A DNA stretch of 5,242 nucleotides from Zoogloea sp. GTDB taxonomy: Bacteria; Pseudomonadota; Gammaproteobacteria; Burkholderiales; Rhodocyclaceae. This document shows positions 1-5,242 of this stretch, one piece after another; the stretch's first letter is position 1; each line of letters starts with the position of its first letter. The position numbers were made by a program, and so were the translations under genes. A model generated the notes under the pieces. It was not told the origin of the DNA. It made no database searches and saw only the letters and a list, made by a program, of their open reading frames with translations. The stretch lies in NCBI GenBank assembly GCA_016790385.1, contig JAEUNV010000025.1:1-5242 (forward strand), written 5' to 3'.

Positions 1-43
1 ACTCGTGTGGGATTTCGGTACAAGACAGACGGGCGGACCCGGT

Positions 44-48
44 GGAGA
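44..48 (+). promoter_or_regulatory. Ribosome binding site for the hybrid kinase
   Basis: GGAGA lies seven bases before the GTG at position 56. It is the only Shine-Dalgarno-like sequence near the 5' end of the reading frame, and it decides the start chosen for the kinase over the GTG at position 5, whose upstream sequence is not in the window. Confidence 0.6.
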
Positions 49-55
49 CCTGGCA

Positions 56-2764
56 GTGAGCAACCCTTCGTGGAAGTCCCTGAGAACGCGACTTGTTGCC
101 GGGGCGCTGTGCGCGTCGGTGGTGTCGATCTGGATCGTCGCCCTGGGAATAGGCCGCTACGTCCGTTCGGACATGGAGGCCGCCATCTCCGCGCAGCAGT
201 TTTCGACCATCTCCATCCTGGCCTCGGAGATCGATCGCTCCCTACTGGAGCGCAATGAAATTCTGAGCCAGCTTGCGCAACGGCTGGAGGCCTTGCCGAA
301 CGCGGACGCGGCCCACATCCAGTCTATGCTCGAGGCCCAGGTCGGCGTCGACGCGCTCTTTAACTGGGGCGTGATCGTTGTGGACGCAGAGGGCACGGCG
401 ATGGCTAGCGTACCCGCTCATCTTGAACGTGTGGGAACGGCCTACGGCGACCGGGCTTACTTCCAAACCTTGCGCAAAACACTGACTCCCATCATCACGC
501 CACCCATGGTCGGACGCAGGACCGGTGTTCCCGTGATCACCATCGCAGTCCCGATCCGGGGCGCAGACAAACGTTTCCGTGGCGCGGTGCTTGGTGTCAC
601 CAACCTGCTCGAACCTAATTTCCTGGACCAGATCAGCCGGGCAAAGTACGGGCACACCGGCGACTTCGTGATCACGGACAGCAGGACCCGGACCTACATC
701 GCTTCGTCCGACAAGCGCCGGGTCATGGGGGCAGGCCCCGCCGCAGGCGTGAATCCCATCTACGACAAGTACATCGCCGGACATGAAGGCTCAGGTATCG
801 CGGTCAGCTCCCGCGGCGTAGAGGAGCTCTCTTCATCGGTCAGGATTGGCAAGACAGCTTGGCTCATGCAATCCGTACTGCCGACCCAGGAGGCCTTCCT
901 GGTGGCACGTCAGATCCAGGTGCGACTTGTAGTGGCGGCCTTGGTGCTGACATTTTTTACAGGCTGGGTTGCGTGGTGGTGGGTACGCCGCCAGCTACGG
1001 CCACTCGAGAAATCGGCCATCCTGCTGGAAGAGATGCGCCAAGGTACCCGGCCACGGGAGGCTCTGCCGGTCGAGCGGGACGATGAGATCGGAAAACTGG
1101 CCAATGCCTTCAACGGACTGCTCAAGGCCATTGTCGATCAGGAGGCCGTGATCACCCGCATGGCGGCGACCGAGCAGGTGCGCAAGATTCTGACTCACGT
1201 ACCTGGGATGGTGTTCAAGTACCGACAGCTTCCCGACGGGACAGGCGCCTTCCCCTTTGCCAGCGAGGCCGTGCGCAGCCTCTACGGGGTCAGTTCGGAA
1301 ACCGTGGAGGAAAGCGCATCGAGCATCCGCCGACTTCTCTTCCACGAAGACCGTGAGCGATTCTTCGCGTCGCTCCGCCAGTCGGCCGAACACATGGAGC
1401 GCTGGTTGGTGGATTACCGCATCCAGTTGGACGATGGTTCGCTCAAATGGCTGCATGTGGACGCGGTTCCCGAGCGGGACACGGACGGCTGCACGGTATG
1501 GTATGGCTTTGTGACCGACGTGACCGCGACAAAGACGCTGGAACATGAGCTTGACATGCACCGGGCGCACCTGGAGGAACTGGTCCACAAACGCACCGAA
1601 GAGCTTGAAACGGCGCGCAATGCCGCGGAGGCCGCCAACGTCGCCAAGAGCACCTTCCTGGCGAACATGAGCCATGAGATCCGCACCCCCCTGAATGCCA
1701 TCTCCGGGATGGCCTACCTGATGCGGAAGTCCGGCACCACGCCCGAGCAGACGGACCGCCTGGACAAGATCACCGCTGCCAGCAAGCATCTGCTGGAGAT
1801 CATCGATTCGATTCTGGATCTGTCCAAGATCGAGGCCGGCAAGCTGACCCTTGGCGCGGAACCCATCCACCTGCAGGCTCTGCTCGACAACGTGGTTTCA
1901 ATCATGAATGACCGGGCTGCCGGAAAGGGAATCCGCCTGAGGGCGGAACCGGTCACCGATCTGCAGGGTGTCTTGGGCGACGGCACGCGCTTGCGTCAGG
2001 CGCTGCTCAATTACGTGGGCAATGCCATCAAGTTTACCCAGCAGGGCTGCGTAAGCTTGAGAGCTCGCGTCGATCAGGATGAAGGCAGCAGCGTGCTGGT
2101 GCGCTTCGAGGTGGAGGACACCGGAATCGGCATCCCCGCCGACGCAATCGGCAAGATTTTTCACGCCTTTGAGCAGGCAGACAGCTCAACAACCCGGGAG
2201 TACGGCGGTACCGGCCTGGGCCTGGCGATTACCCAACGCCTTGCCGAATTGATGGGTGGCACCGTAGGCGTGAACAGTACGCCTGACAAGGGCAGTATCT
2301 TCTGGCTGACCGCCCGGCTGGAACGACACGCGCTGCCACAAACCGACACCGAACTGCCCGACCAGACCCACATCGAGGCACGGCTGCGAGACATCAGCCC
2401 CGGCAAGTGCGTCCTCCTGGTGGAGGACGAGCCGGTCTGTCAGATGGTGGCAGAGGAGCTTCTTACCGACATGGGGCTTGCCGTGGACACGGCGGATGAC
2501 GGTCAGCAGGCCGTCCGGATGGCAACCGAGAAGGCCTACGATGTCATTTTGATGGATATGCAGATGCCCAGGATGGACGGCCTTTCCGCCGCGCGCAGCA
2601 TCCGTCTGCTGGCGGCACGGCAGTCCGTTCCCATCGTGGCGATGACCGCCAATGTATTCAATGAAGACAGGGCCAACTGCATGGCCGCTGGCATGAACGA
2701 CTTTCTCCCCAAACCGATCGTCCCGGATCGACTTTACGCGATGCTCGTGCGCTGGCTGAGCTGA
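56..2764 (+). CDS. Hybrid sensor histidine kinase (Cache-HAMP-PAS-HisKA-HATPase-REC)
   Basis: An inner-membrane hybrid kinase of about 902 residues that should autophosphorylate on histidine and pass the phosphate to its own receiver domain. Domains, numbered from GTG 56: TM1 about 14-36; a periplasmic double-Cache-like sensor about 37-285 with a DRAYF motif near 132-136; TM2 about 288-310; HAMP about 311-363; PAS about 374-493; a charged coiled-coil linker about 494-531; HisKA with H540 in [11 protein letters not shown]; HATPase with N box ([10 protein letters not shown]), G1 (DTGIGI, 688-693), F box (FEQAD) and G2 (GGTGLGL, 717-723); receiver about 785-900 with acidic pair E790/D791, phospho-acceptor D834, T864 and K886. 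All catalytic residues look intact. There is no Hpt or DNA-binding domain, so a separate phosphotransfer partner is expected. The frame stays open to the left edge, so a start at position 5 or further upstream is possible; GTG 56 is preferred because of its RBS and because it places TM1 close to the N-terminus. The ligand is unknown. The gene converges on the acxR-like gene and is not co-transcribed with it. Confidence 0.93.
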
Positions 2765-2801: not shown

Positions 2802-4814
2802 TCAGGTGACCGATCGGGTCCAGTGCTTCGCCTCCCGAGCCCGGATGGCCGCCAGCTTTACATACAGCGTGCTTCGCGAGATCCCCAGCGTGCGCGCCGC
2901 CAGGGACATATTGCCGCGGGCACCGGCGATGGCATCCAGCACTGCCTGACGCTCCACCTGCTCAAGGCGCCCCATTCCTTCCGCCGCGGGCGCCTCGCCA
3001 AGCCCCTCGGCCTGTTCGGCCATCACCCGGGAGATTGCGGGGGGCAGTTGGGCGGCATCGATGAGTTCGCCATCGCTCAACGCAAACATGGCCTCAAACA
3101 CGTTGCGCAGCTCACGGATGTTACCGGGCCAGCGATAGCACCGAAATGCCCGGTGGACCAACGGATCCAGAGCTTTCGGCGCACAGCCATACTTGGCCGC
3201 CAGACGCTGGTTGAGGTGTTCCACGATGATCTCGATATCGCCGGGGCGCTCCCGCAGGGCCGGCAAGCTCAAACTCACGGCACACAGCCGGTGATAGAGA
3301 TCCTCCCTGAAACGCCCGGCCTCCACTTCGGTTTGCAGATCGCGATTGGTGGCGGCCACGATGCGGACCGCCACTTTGCGCTGACGGATATCCCCCAGCC
3401 GTACCACCTGCCCGTCCTGCAACACCCGCAGAAGGTGAGGTTGCATGTCGAGGGGCATTTCCCCCACTTCGTCGAGAAACAGCGTCCCCCCGTCGGCCTG
3501 TTCGAACTTGCCGGCCAGGCCGCCCCGGCGGGCACCCGTAAACGCCCCCTCGACATAACCAAAGAGTTCGCTGGCCAGGAGCTCCCGCGTCAGGGCGCCG
3601 CAATTGACCGCCACGAAGGGGCCGCTGGATTGCCCGCCGGCACCATGCAAGGCGCGGGCGAAAAGCTCTTTTCCGGCGCCCGTCTCGCCCAGCAGGAGAA
3701 CGGGAAGATCCAGCGGCGCAATCCGCCGCGCACGCTCCTTGGACGCCTTCAGCACCGCGCTGTCGCCAATGATCTCCGCAAAGGCATCGGTCGCCCCGGC
3801 ACCGTCGGTGCCGGCCCGGGTGGAGGACGAGACGCTCCGGTGCCCACGCGCCCCCAGGGGAATCACCAGCAGTGTCCCGAGCACCGTGTCTCCGTCCCTT
3901 ATTGGATGGAGCCATTCCGGCAGCAGCCAGGCAGGTCGAGCCCGCTGGCGGTCGGAGGCCGAGAGACTGAGATTGAGGGCCACCAGTTGCGCGCCTACCT
4001 CGAAGGGCAGTCGAACCCCATGGTGCTCTCGCGCGGCCTGGACACTGCCCGACGTCCGCACCACACGACCGCGCGGATCACAGAGCATCAAACAGTCATT
4101 GCCGTAGCGGATGAAATCATCCATGGCCCTGGCCAGCAGACGGGCATGCAGGATGCCGTCACGCCGGGCCAACTCGCCTTCGATCTGCTTGGCCGCCGCC
4201 ATCACCAGGGCCAGGCTATGGCCATGGAAGGTCTCCTTGACACCGGAAACATCCACCACGCCAAGGAGATTCCGACCCAAAGGATCGAGGATGGGCGCCG
4301 CCGCGCAGGTCCATCGCTTGACGTCCACGCAAAAGTGCTCGCTCGCGTGGATCTGCACCGGCACACCGGTGGCAATTGCGGTGCCGATCGCATTGGTACC
4401 AATCAGCTCTTCGTTCCAGCACCCCCCCATTGCCAGATTCACCCCCTCTCCGGCGCTGCGGACCCGTGACTCTCCGTTGAGGTCGAGGATGGTGCCGCCG
4501 GGGTCGGTGAGCATGATGAGCGAGCCGCATTCCCGAAGGATGTCCCGCAGGCCATCCAGGACCGGGCGCGCGGCATCACAGAGCTCTCGATGCTCCGCCA
4601 GCAGCTGGCGCACCCGCTCGTGGTCCACTGCCGGTGCGCAGGAGCTTTCCGGATTGACCGCCTCGGATCGGCAGCGCTGCCACGAATGCAGCACCACACT
4701 GCGCACACCGCCCACCTGCACAGACTGATGCTGGAGGAAGCGCGTCCAGGCAGCCGCCACGACCTGCTCGTCACCAATCCGGGGAATCAGGGTACCGCAG
4801 TGGGAAAAGGGCAT
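2802..4814 (-). CDS. acxR: AcoR/AcxR-type sigma-54-dependent activator, likely regulator of acetone carboxylase
   Basis: A 670-residue bacterial enhancer-binding protein that uses ATP hydrolysis to open sigma-54 promoters. Seen in order: an N-terminal region with the SWQRCR motif (44-49); a GAF-type sensor about 75-215 carrying the AcoR hallmark [11 protein letters not shown], an EHF motif, CAAAPI and GVVDVSG; a poorly conserved PAS-like segment about 222-320; an AAA+ domain about 345-575 with Walker A GETGAGKE (376-383), the sigma-54 contact loop GAFTGA (423-428), Walker B GGTLFLDE (442-449) and FREDLYHRL (502-510); and a Fis-type helix-turn-helix about 617-660 ([17 protein letters not shown]). 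There is no receiver domain, so control is probably by a small ligand and not by phosphorylation. The name rests on divergence from an acxA-like gene plus family type; AcoR (acetoin) or another ketone/alcohol regulator is the alternative. The ATG at 4814 follows a run of seven C on the coding strand with only a weak AGAG as RBS, so the start is less certain than the gene. Confidence 0.93.
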
Positions 4815-4855
4815 GGGGGGGCTCTGACAGGCAGGTTGAAAAAAGATCGGACCTC

Positions 4856-4863
4856 TCCGGACA
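4856..4863 (+). promoter_or_regulatory. Half-site TCCGGACA at the predicted acxR transcription start
   Basis: This octamer is identical to the right arm of the palindrome at 4945-4961. The matching left arm is absent here (TCGGACCT in its place), so it is only a half-site. It overlaps the edge of the proposed acxR -10 element and its predicted start point, a location that would suit autorepression. That role is inference. Confidence 0.4.
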
Positions 4864-4891
4864 AACTAGCTTCATTGCACCATAAAGTCAA
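4863..4891 (-). promoter_or_regulatory. Candidate sigma-70 promoter of acxR
   Basis: On the minus strand, TTGACT (4886-4891, five of six to the -35 consensus) is followed after exactly 17 bp by TAGTTT (4863-4868, three of six to the -10 consensus). Transcription would begin near 4856, giving a leader of about 42 nt. The surrounding 60 bp are distinctly AT-rich against the GC-rich background. A TTGATA further upstream on the same strand is an alternative -35 without a better -10. Confidence 0.4.
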
Positions 4892-4944
4892 TAAATTACC
4901 ATATATATCAATGACTTGTGCGACGCAACAGAAGCCCTGAAAAG

Positions 4945-4961
4945 TGTCCGGAATCCGGACA
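4945..4961. promoter_or_regulatory. Perfect 17-bp palindrome, probable enhancer (UAS) for AcxR
   Basis: TGTCCGGA, one central A, then TCCGGACA: both 8-bp arms match perfectly. Its centre lies about 167 bp upstream of the start point predicted from the -24/-12 element and about 97 bp upstream of the predicted acxR start. Dyad sites at 80-200 bp upstream are the normal binding sites of dimeric Fis-type HTH enhancer-binding proteins, and AcxR is the only such protein encoded here. Binding by AcxR is inferred. Confidence 0.7.
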
Positions 4962-4973
4962 ACCAGTCCGCTG

Positions 4974-4990
4974 ATTCAGGATTCCGGACA
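4974..4990. promoter_or_regulatory. Second, degenerate copy of the enhancer palindrome
   Basis: The right arm TCCGGACA (4983-4990) is identical to the first site; the left arm ATTCAGGA matches TGTCCGGA at five of eight positions. The centre is 29 bp from the first palindrome, a little under three helical turns, so both sites face roughly the same side of the DNA. Paired sites of unequal strength are typical for sigma-54 activators, which oligomerise when bound. Confidence 0.55.
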
Positions 4991-5038
4991 GAATCGCCAC
5001 CGGTCCGCCCCCCGCCCCGGGCGCCCATTGATTGACCC

Positions 5039-5063
5039 GGGAGCCTTGCTGCACAAGGCTCCC
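5039..5063. repeat. Inverted repeat, 10-bp arms with 5-nt loop
   Basis: GGGAGCCTTG (5039-5048) and CAAGGCTCCC (5054-5063) are perfectly complementary around CTGCA; with one bulged C the pairing extends to flanking CCGG. It sits between the enhancer sites and the sigma-54 promoter, about 57-81 bp upstream of the predicted start. No T-run follows on either strand, so it does not look like an intrinsic terminator. It could be a binding site for another regulator. Function unknown. Confidence 0.6.
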
Positions 5064-5093
5064 CGGCCGCTTTCCACGACCTGGCATGTCCCC

Positions 5094-5109
5094 TGGCCCG
5101 TCCCTTGCC
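5094..5109 (+). promoter_or_regulatory. Sigma-54 (-24/-12) promoter of acxA
   Basis: TGGCCCG, four bases, then TTGCC: this matches the consensus TGGCACG-N4-TTGCW at all but two positions, and the invariant GG (5095-5096) and GC (5107-5108) are separated by exactly 10 bp. Transcription should start near 5119-5120, leaving a leader of about 43 nt before the acxA ATG. The intact GAFTGA loop in the divergent activator independently predicts such a promoter here. Confidence 0.8.
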
Positions 5110-5150
5110 CTTGGATTGATGTGGAGCCCCGCTTCACACACACCAATGAC

Positions 5151-5155
5151 AGGAG
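5151..5155 (+). promoter_or_regulatory. Ribosome binding site of acxA
   Basis: AGGAG is placed seven bases before ATG 5163. It favours this ATG over the internal ATG at 5193, which lies too close to the conserved GIDAGGT motif. Confidence 0.75.
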
Positions 5156-5162
5156 ACACGAC

Positions 5163-5242
5163 ATGCAAGTCCAGCAGTCAAATGTGCAGGTGATGGGCAT
5201 CGATGCCGGCGGCACGATGACCGACACCTTCTTCGTCCGCGC
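5163..5242 (+). CDS. acxA: Acetone carboxylase beta subunit, N-terminal fragment (runs off the window)
   Basis: Only 26 complete codons are present: the protein begins MQVQQSNVQV and continues with MGIDAGGTMTDTFFVR. The D-x-G-G-T-x-T-D loop is the N-terminal phosphate-binding motif of the hydantoinase A/oxoprolinase (ASKHA-fold) family, and the form GIDAGGTMTDTFFV, with methionine after GGT, is what I recall for acetone carboxylase beta subunits. That enzyme carboxylates acetone to acetoacetate with bicarbonate, spending ATP to AMP and two phosphates, and acts as an alpha-beta-gamma complex in the cytoplasm. The preceding sigma-54 promoter and divergent AcoR-type regulator support the call. 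With so short a fragment, a related carboxylase (for example acetophenone carboxylase) or an N-methylhydantoinase A cannot be excluded. The alpha and gamma subunit genes would be expected downstream. Confidence 0.8.
   Translation, partial: MQVQQSNVQVMGIDAGGTMTDTFFVR

Follow-up and report, generated by a model that had tools for sequence, protein, structure and literature searches.

A conserved palindrome pair between the divergent acxR and acxA genes as the probable AcxR enhancer of the acetone carboxylase operon

The window analyzed here is the whole of a 5,242-base contig from a 3.0-Mb assembly that is 72% complete. Its genus is probably that of Zoogloea dura, as G583, a genome assigned to the same genus as the window, shares coordinates with the genome of the named locus L009. 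It holds a histidine kinase gene, acxR and the beginning of acxA, and the last two genes are divergent and separated by a gap of 348 bp. The features discussed below are as follows:

2-2764, plus strand: hybrid histidine kinase with Cache-HAMP-PAS and a receiver domain, convergent with acxR
2802-4814, minus strand: acxR, encoding a 670-aa activator with GAF, sigma-54 AAA+ (GAFTGA) and Fis-type HTH domains
4856-4863, plus strand: stray octamer TCCGGACA, at the predicted acxR start
4863-4891, minus strand: predicted acxR promoter TTGACT-N17-TAGTTT, start predicted near 4856
4906-4918, plus strand: TATCAATGACTTG, a match to the IHF consensus
4915-4931: PhaR-type box CTTGTGCGACGCAACAG, an exact match to YTKNTGCRNYGCANMAR, centered at about -67 of acxR
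4945-4961: candidate operator I, perfect 8+1+8 palindrome TGTCCGGA-A-TCCGGACA, that is TGTCCGGAATCCGGACA, 0 mismatches
4974-4990: candidate operator II, ATTCAGGATTCCGGACA, one arm perfect, 3 mismatches, 29 bp from operator I
5041-5061: perfect inverted repeat GAGCCTTG-N5-CAAGGCTC
5094-5109, plus strand: predicted sigma-54 -24/-12 promoter of acxA, TGGCCCGTCCCTTGCC, start predicted near 5120
5163-5242, plus strand: start of acxA (acetone carboxylase beta subunit), truncated by the contig end

The domain content of the regulator (GAF, AAA+ with GAFTGA, Fis HTH) and the adjoining acxABC locus, of which acxB and acxC lie beyond the contig, are those of an AcxR. The full-length acxA ortholog of Zoogloea dura matches, over its length, acetone carboxylase beta chains of known structure (5m45 and 5svb), and a gamma subunit of the enzyme is annotated at the locus of C. 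pinatubonensis.

Allowing up to three mismatches, the palindrome matches twice in the window, where 0.04 matches are expected and no more than one was reached in 200 shuffles. The preliminary description had noticed a perfect palindrome followed 29 bp away by a copy with one perfect arm, and had counted the octamer TCCGGACA three times in the window, all within one intergenic region. Both observations hold, the count of three being that of the plus strand (4856, 4954 and 4983); on both strands together there are four copies, all inside the acxR-acxA gap, against 0.22 expected and with four reached in 0 of 200 shuffles. The stray copy at the predicted acxR start is not retained in the half-site lists of the two nearest relatives, L094 and L095. 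Across the 3.0-Mb assembly the exact 17-bp palindrome is present once (0.001 expected from simple base composition). At up to three mismatches the genome-wide count is uninformative, with 11 matches against 11 for a reversed-pattern control, so that only near-exact copies are meaningful at this scale.

An order-wide sample contained AcxR at the cut-off in just 3 of 300 genomes, the window's own included, and we therefore relied on family and genus searches. These gave 42 acxR loci: 17 from the family of the window (17/395 genomes), four from another family of the order (4/61), 14 from the genus of Cupriavidus sp. amp6 (13/60 genomes) and seven from the genus of Paraburkholderia phosphatilytica (7/144). 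Some of these loci are near-identical, and 35 are left after removal of such copies. Conservation in orthologous acxR-acxA regions, on which the preliminary description had staked its operator, proved complete: the best palindrome match within 460 bases of acxR, here called the primary site, departs from the exact sequence at 0-3 positions in 42/42 loci, and positions 2-6 and 13 are invariant. The base counts of the 42 primary sites fit the dyad TGT-N11-ACA. The best partner site lies 29-31 bp away, on either side of the primary site, in 40/42 loci, the exceptions being L136 (18 bp) and L143 (34 bp). Partners are weak, with 5-6 mismatches, in seven loci (L006, L096-L100 and L102); two of these, L098 and L099, have a match of equal quality 51 or 58 bp away. 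Partners with at most four mismatches at 28-31 bp are found in 26 of the 35 non-redundant loci, compared with a mean of 0.007 and a maximum of 1 in 300 flank shuffles.

The position of the pair is conserved as well. A search of related genomes for palindromes upstream of -24/-12 promoters had been suggested, and such a promoter pattern does follow in all 40 loci with acxA in reach, as TGGC-N7-TTGC in 34 and in a looser form in six (L105-L108, L140 and L142). With the sigma-54 start taken 26 bp after the TGG of the promoter, the palindrome centers of the window fall at about -167 and -138, as originally placed. Measured from the predicted acxA start, the centers span -169 to -161 and -138 to -131 in 38/40 loci (the second center in L094, L095 and L098 being the 29-bp partner, not the second-best match), or about -165 and -136, within 80-200 bp upstream of the -24/-12 element. 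One of the two exceptions is Zoogloea dura (L103), in which both sites have moved together by 10 bp, to -154/-125; the other is L136.

On the opposite side of the gap, TTGACT occurs upstream of acxR in 32/42 loci, with TA...T 17 bp further in 31 of the 32. We call an acxR promoter because of this conservation and not from the generic scan, since a simple scan of 4700-5242 reported no terminator-like site, no generic sigma-70 promoter and not the predicted acxR promoter either. Counted from the predicted acxR start, the nearer operator is centered at -92 to -98 in 31 of the 32 TTGACT loci and at -103 in L123. Given near-constant distances to both predicted starts, one pair holds two distances in compact loci such as the window.

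The occurrence of the palindrome follows that of the regulator. AcxR orthologs (62-100% identity) are present in 17/395 genomes of the family; 75 of the 395 match at 1e-150, and 58 of these 75 contain paralogs only, at 40-47% identity. The exact palindrome occurs in 15/395 genomes, as one copy per genome and by coordinates always directly upstream of acxR, while the remaining two acxR genomes (L006 and L098) have one-mismatch sites. It is found in 0/378 family genomes without acxR, with the reversed control also at 0, and the association has a Fisher p of 3e-25; as far as the listed handles show, the AcxR and palindrome searches used the same draw of 395 genomes. In the Cupriavidus genome G300, the sole copy with at most one mismatch adjoins acxR. 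This tracking of acxR by the exact copy supports the earlier proposal that the palindrome may be the recognition sequence of an AcxR-type regulator.

Comparison of recognition helices extends the association to more distant activators. The core GTCCG-N5-CGGAC is found near the gene in 48/55 loci of AcoR- or AcxR-like activators in which STLY is followed by V, L or M, and once the 42-locus set is set aside it is still present in 11/16 (5/6 alphaproteobacterial AcxR and 6/10 paralogs with V or L). It is found in 0/32 loci with R or K after STLY, which are far relatives with other neighbors. Outside this contrast stand 39 loci with an unparsed helix and seven with I, A, C, N or S, and neither site is found in them; the exact core is absent from the acxR loci L137 and L138, which have A or S in the helix. 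Among distant AcxR-type loci, Aquabacter (L014, 42% identity, divergent acxA) contains TGTCCGGAAATCGGACA, L019 and L169 carry such palindromes between co-directional acxR and acxA, and in L170 one falls within the 3' end of acxR as annotated, with none at the far loci L010, L011 and L168. Exact sites beside acxR, combined with like sites at related activators, point to AcxR as the likely owner.

Judged from its sequence and from a conservation that is unusually firm, the pair is a real and specific cis element of a known kind. We consider it very probable (about 90%) that the two palindromes are the binding sites of two AcxR dimers, which together would form the enhancer of the acetone carboxylase operon. 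A rough scheme can be proposed. Acetone or a related signal would be sensed by the GAF part of AcxR, and AcxR dimers on the operator pair would assemble a hexamer that loops to RNA polymerase-sigma-54 waiting at the -24/-12 promoter of acxA and opens this promoter by ATP hydrolysis. IHF may help the looping in most relatives: 34/41 loci carry, ahead of acxA, a second IHF-like site with no more than one mismatch, and in 31 of these it falls between -71 and -75, compared with a shuffle mean of 2.7 and a maximum of 6. The site near -74 is absent from the window (3 mismatches) as well as from L094 and L095 (3-4 mismatches). An IHF site between the enhancer and the acxA promoter was considered for the window and rejected, the best match there having three mismatches, and because the -74 site is absent we do not count IHF as a looping part in this locus. 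Near the position that the IHF-like site takes in most relatives the window has the perfect inverted repeat at 5041-5061, which is shorter in L094.

The proposed element resembles several described systems. TGT-N10-12-ACA enhancer sites have been described for many sigma-54 activators, including FhlA, NifA and groups from Clostridiales (in the accessible part of PMC6615313), and like them the sites in the window are dyads, have TGT and ACA ends separated by 11 bp and lie upstream of a -24/-12 promoter. Unlike them, the motif has full 8-bp arms, is arranged in tandem at 29-31 bp and, in the 15 family genomes with an exact site, has just one such site each. For C. metallidurans CH34, a sigma-54-like promoter pattern in the acxR-acxA gap was described previously, and induction of the acx locus by acetone and 2-propanol is given as a personal communication (PMC2864759, in part). 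The acxRABC arrangement of that strain, with a divergent acxR and a sigma-54 promoter upstream of acxA, is like that of the window, and the available portion of its description names no AcxR binding site (PMC2864759). In Xanthobacter autotrophicus Py2 an AcxR-type sigma-54 activator adjoins acxABC (Sluis 2002, as relayed in the consulted section of PMC2864759). Aquabacter, which is alphaproteobacterial like Xanthobacter, has the core TGTCCG-N5-CGGACA; it differs in its regulator, of about 42% identity, and in showing no clear pair at 29-31 bp. The BmoR/Pbmo system of Thauera butanivorans likewise combines a sigma-54 activator with a far-upstream inverted repeat, and IHF looping has been proposed for Pbmo, where, in contrast, induction persists after deletion of the repeat (PMC8899819, in part). 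The open-access papers searched on AcxR, acetone carboxylase regulation, AcoR-type sites and the octamer, a scope outside which the 2002 Xanthobacter paper falls, yielded no stated AcxR operator. The pair supplies AcxR, whose locus has been described since 2002 (according to the accessible text of PMC2864759), with an exact consensus, a spacing and a testable geometry. AcxR acting on the pair would explain how acetone use gets switched on, and the consensus could be used to find or build acetone- or isopropanol-responsive promoters.

In several relatives the gap has grown by a gene. An LRAT-like gene lies between acxR and acxA in 19 Cupriavidus and Paraburkholderia loci (L122-L133, L135, L139-L143 and L145), in minus orientation in ten and plus in nine. 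It carries a lecithin retinol acyltransferase family annotation in C. pinatubonensis and was recognized elsewhere by its NCEHF motif; a search by eye for a promoter of this gene found none. In all 17 of these loci with acxA in reach (L141 and L145 being the other two) there is one pair near acxR and another near acxA, the latter at the usual distance from acxA. L143 lacks TTGACT and hence has no acxR distance. The acxA-side sites are weaker, both having five mismatches in L130, L131 and L135 and one of the two in L126 and L133. C. metallidurans CH34 (L134, by coordinates) is without the LRAT-like gene and has a single pair at -166/-137 of acxA, and L144 has a 601-bp gap without the gene and a pair on the acxA side only, the acxR-side pair being absent. 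Our reading is that the operator pair may have two jobs and was doubled as the gap grew. Descent without function appears less likely because the acxR-side sites remain near-perfect; L144, without an acxR-side pair, speaks otherwise. We thus read the element as one AcxR enhancer that would serve two promoters: from its place near -96/-126 of the acxR promoter, the pair may also set acxR expression. This two-promoter reading, like the PhaR link discussed below, is less certain than the assignment of the operator to AcxR. The loci with doubled pairs allow the acxR and acxA roles of the site to be separated.

Several other explanations of the palindromes have to be weighed against this reading. 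The pair could belong to AcxR and act on acxR only, in autoregulation, with acxA activated without a dedicated upstream site, a mode of action open to some sigma-54 activators. The nearly fixed place of the nearer operator relative to the predicted acxR start (31/32 loci) would agree with this, as would the activation by BmoR without its putative site (reported in the accessible part of PMC8899819), but the second pair that keeps the acxA distance in 17/17 testable insertion loci, albeit with weaker sites, and the acxA-side-only pair of L144 both argue against it and leave it a small chance. Ownership of the palindromes by a DNA-binding protein other than AcxR, for which the additional conserved boxes in the gap could speak, as several proteins may act there, has in our view a very slim chance, since the exact sites occur solely beside acxR in 395 genomes and related activators with similar recognition helices have like sites by their own genes (6/10 paralogs with V or L). 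Finally, perfect symmetry might betray a function in RNA, as a hairpin or terminator, or the leftover of a repeat family. A one-base center would leave no proper loop, nothing terminator-like was found in 4700-5242, the sites are upstream of both predicted starts, and the 3.0-Mb, 72% complete assembly holds no further exact copy; we give this explanation practically no credence.

A conserved neighbor of the pair is the PhaR-type box on the acxR side, which is kept near -66 in more than one family. Its position relative to the predicted acxR start is -63 to -67 in 31/31 loci with both TTGACT and a box of at most two mismatches, and with at most one mismatch it is at the conserved place in 22 of the 35 non-redundant loci (shuffle mean 0.15, maximum 2). 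The IHF-consensus match at 4906-4918 overlaps the box by four bases and is kept in many relatives. The genome of the window contains six exact copies of the PhaR consensus of Cupriavidus necator compared with none for the control; one is the box of the window, another lies 116 bp upstream of a phasin gene (L165:1501-1517), and at least two of the six are inside long open frames (L162 and L166). The PhaR domain PF07879 was not found in this 72% complete genome. PhaR is an activator of phaP3, where sites are predicted some 70 and 200 bp ahead of the phaP3 start (PMC12849132, in part). The box thus resembles the PhaR sites of C. necator both in its exact consensus at 4915-4931 and in its distance, the nearer phaP3 site being placed similarly to the box of acxR, and the accessible part of the same source does not mention PhaR action on acxR (PMC12849132).

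These observations hint that the box at -66 of acxR may link the locus to PHB storage. The same box, TTGTGC-N3-GCAACA, could instead be a third, different site of AcxR or of some other regulator and not of PhaR, as its distance of about 30 bp from operator I would suggest. The 30-bp phase shared with the operators and the failure to find PF07879 would favor this, the latter in a genome just 72% complete; the sequence of the box is unlike that of the operator, and the window box is the exact published PhaR consensus, a match also found upstream of the phasin gene of the same genome. We regard a third site as quite possible, if somewhat short of even odds. The reading of AcxR serving both promoters and a possible action of PhaR at the box can be drawn together into a shared switch. 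In it the 30-bp-phased sites at -66 (the PhaR-type box), -96 and -126 of acxR would include, as their operator pair, the -165/-136 enhancer of acxA; the pair would have been doubled on entry of the LRAT-like gene in Cupriavidus and Paraburkholderia, each promoter keeping its own; and PhaR, as a sensor of the PHB store, would set the level of acxR and so tie acetone use to carbon storage. Taken as a whole this model is tentative, and we would sooner expect some part of it to fail; the PhaR-type box nevertheless makes the link between acetone use and PHB storage testable.

The recognition helices were also compared for a strict code of one helix residue to one base. In a first set, regulators with STLYQ had GTTCG-N5-CGAAC in 4/4 cases. 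A wider set was then made up of the 30 best-ranking matches; 25 of its loci were of the Q type, and of these six had T sites only, six C sites only, one both and 12 neither exact form. Because Q-type sites are mixed in this wider set the strict code was dropped, and the broader link between clade and site was retained. AcoR-like paralogs beside other genes (L109-L111, L114, L118, L121 and many of L173-L201) have CGTYCG-N5-CGRACG sites, often two and commonly 32-33 bp apart. At L017, the neighbor of the AcoR-like paralog appears by eye to be an acyl-CoA-synthetase-like frame.
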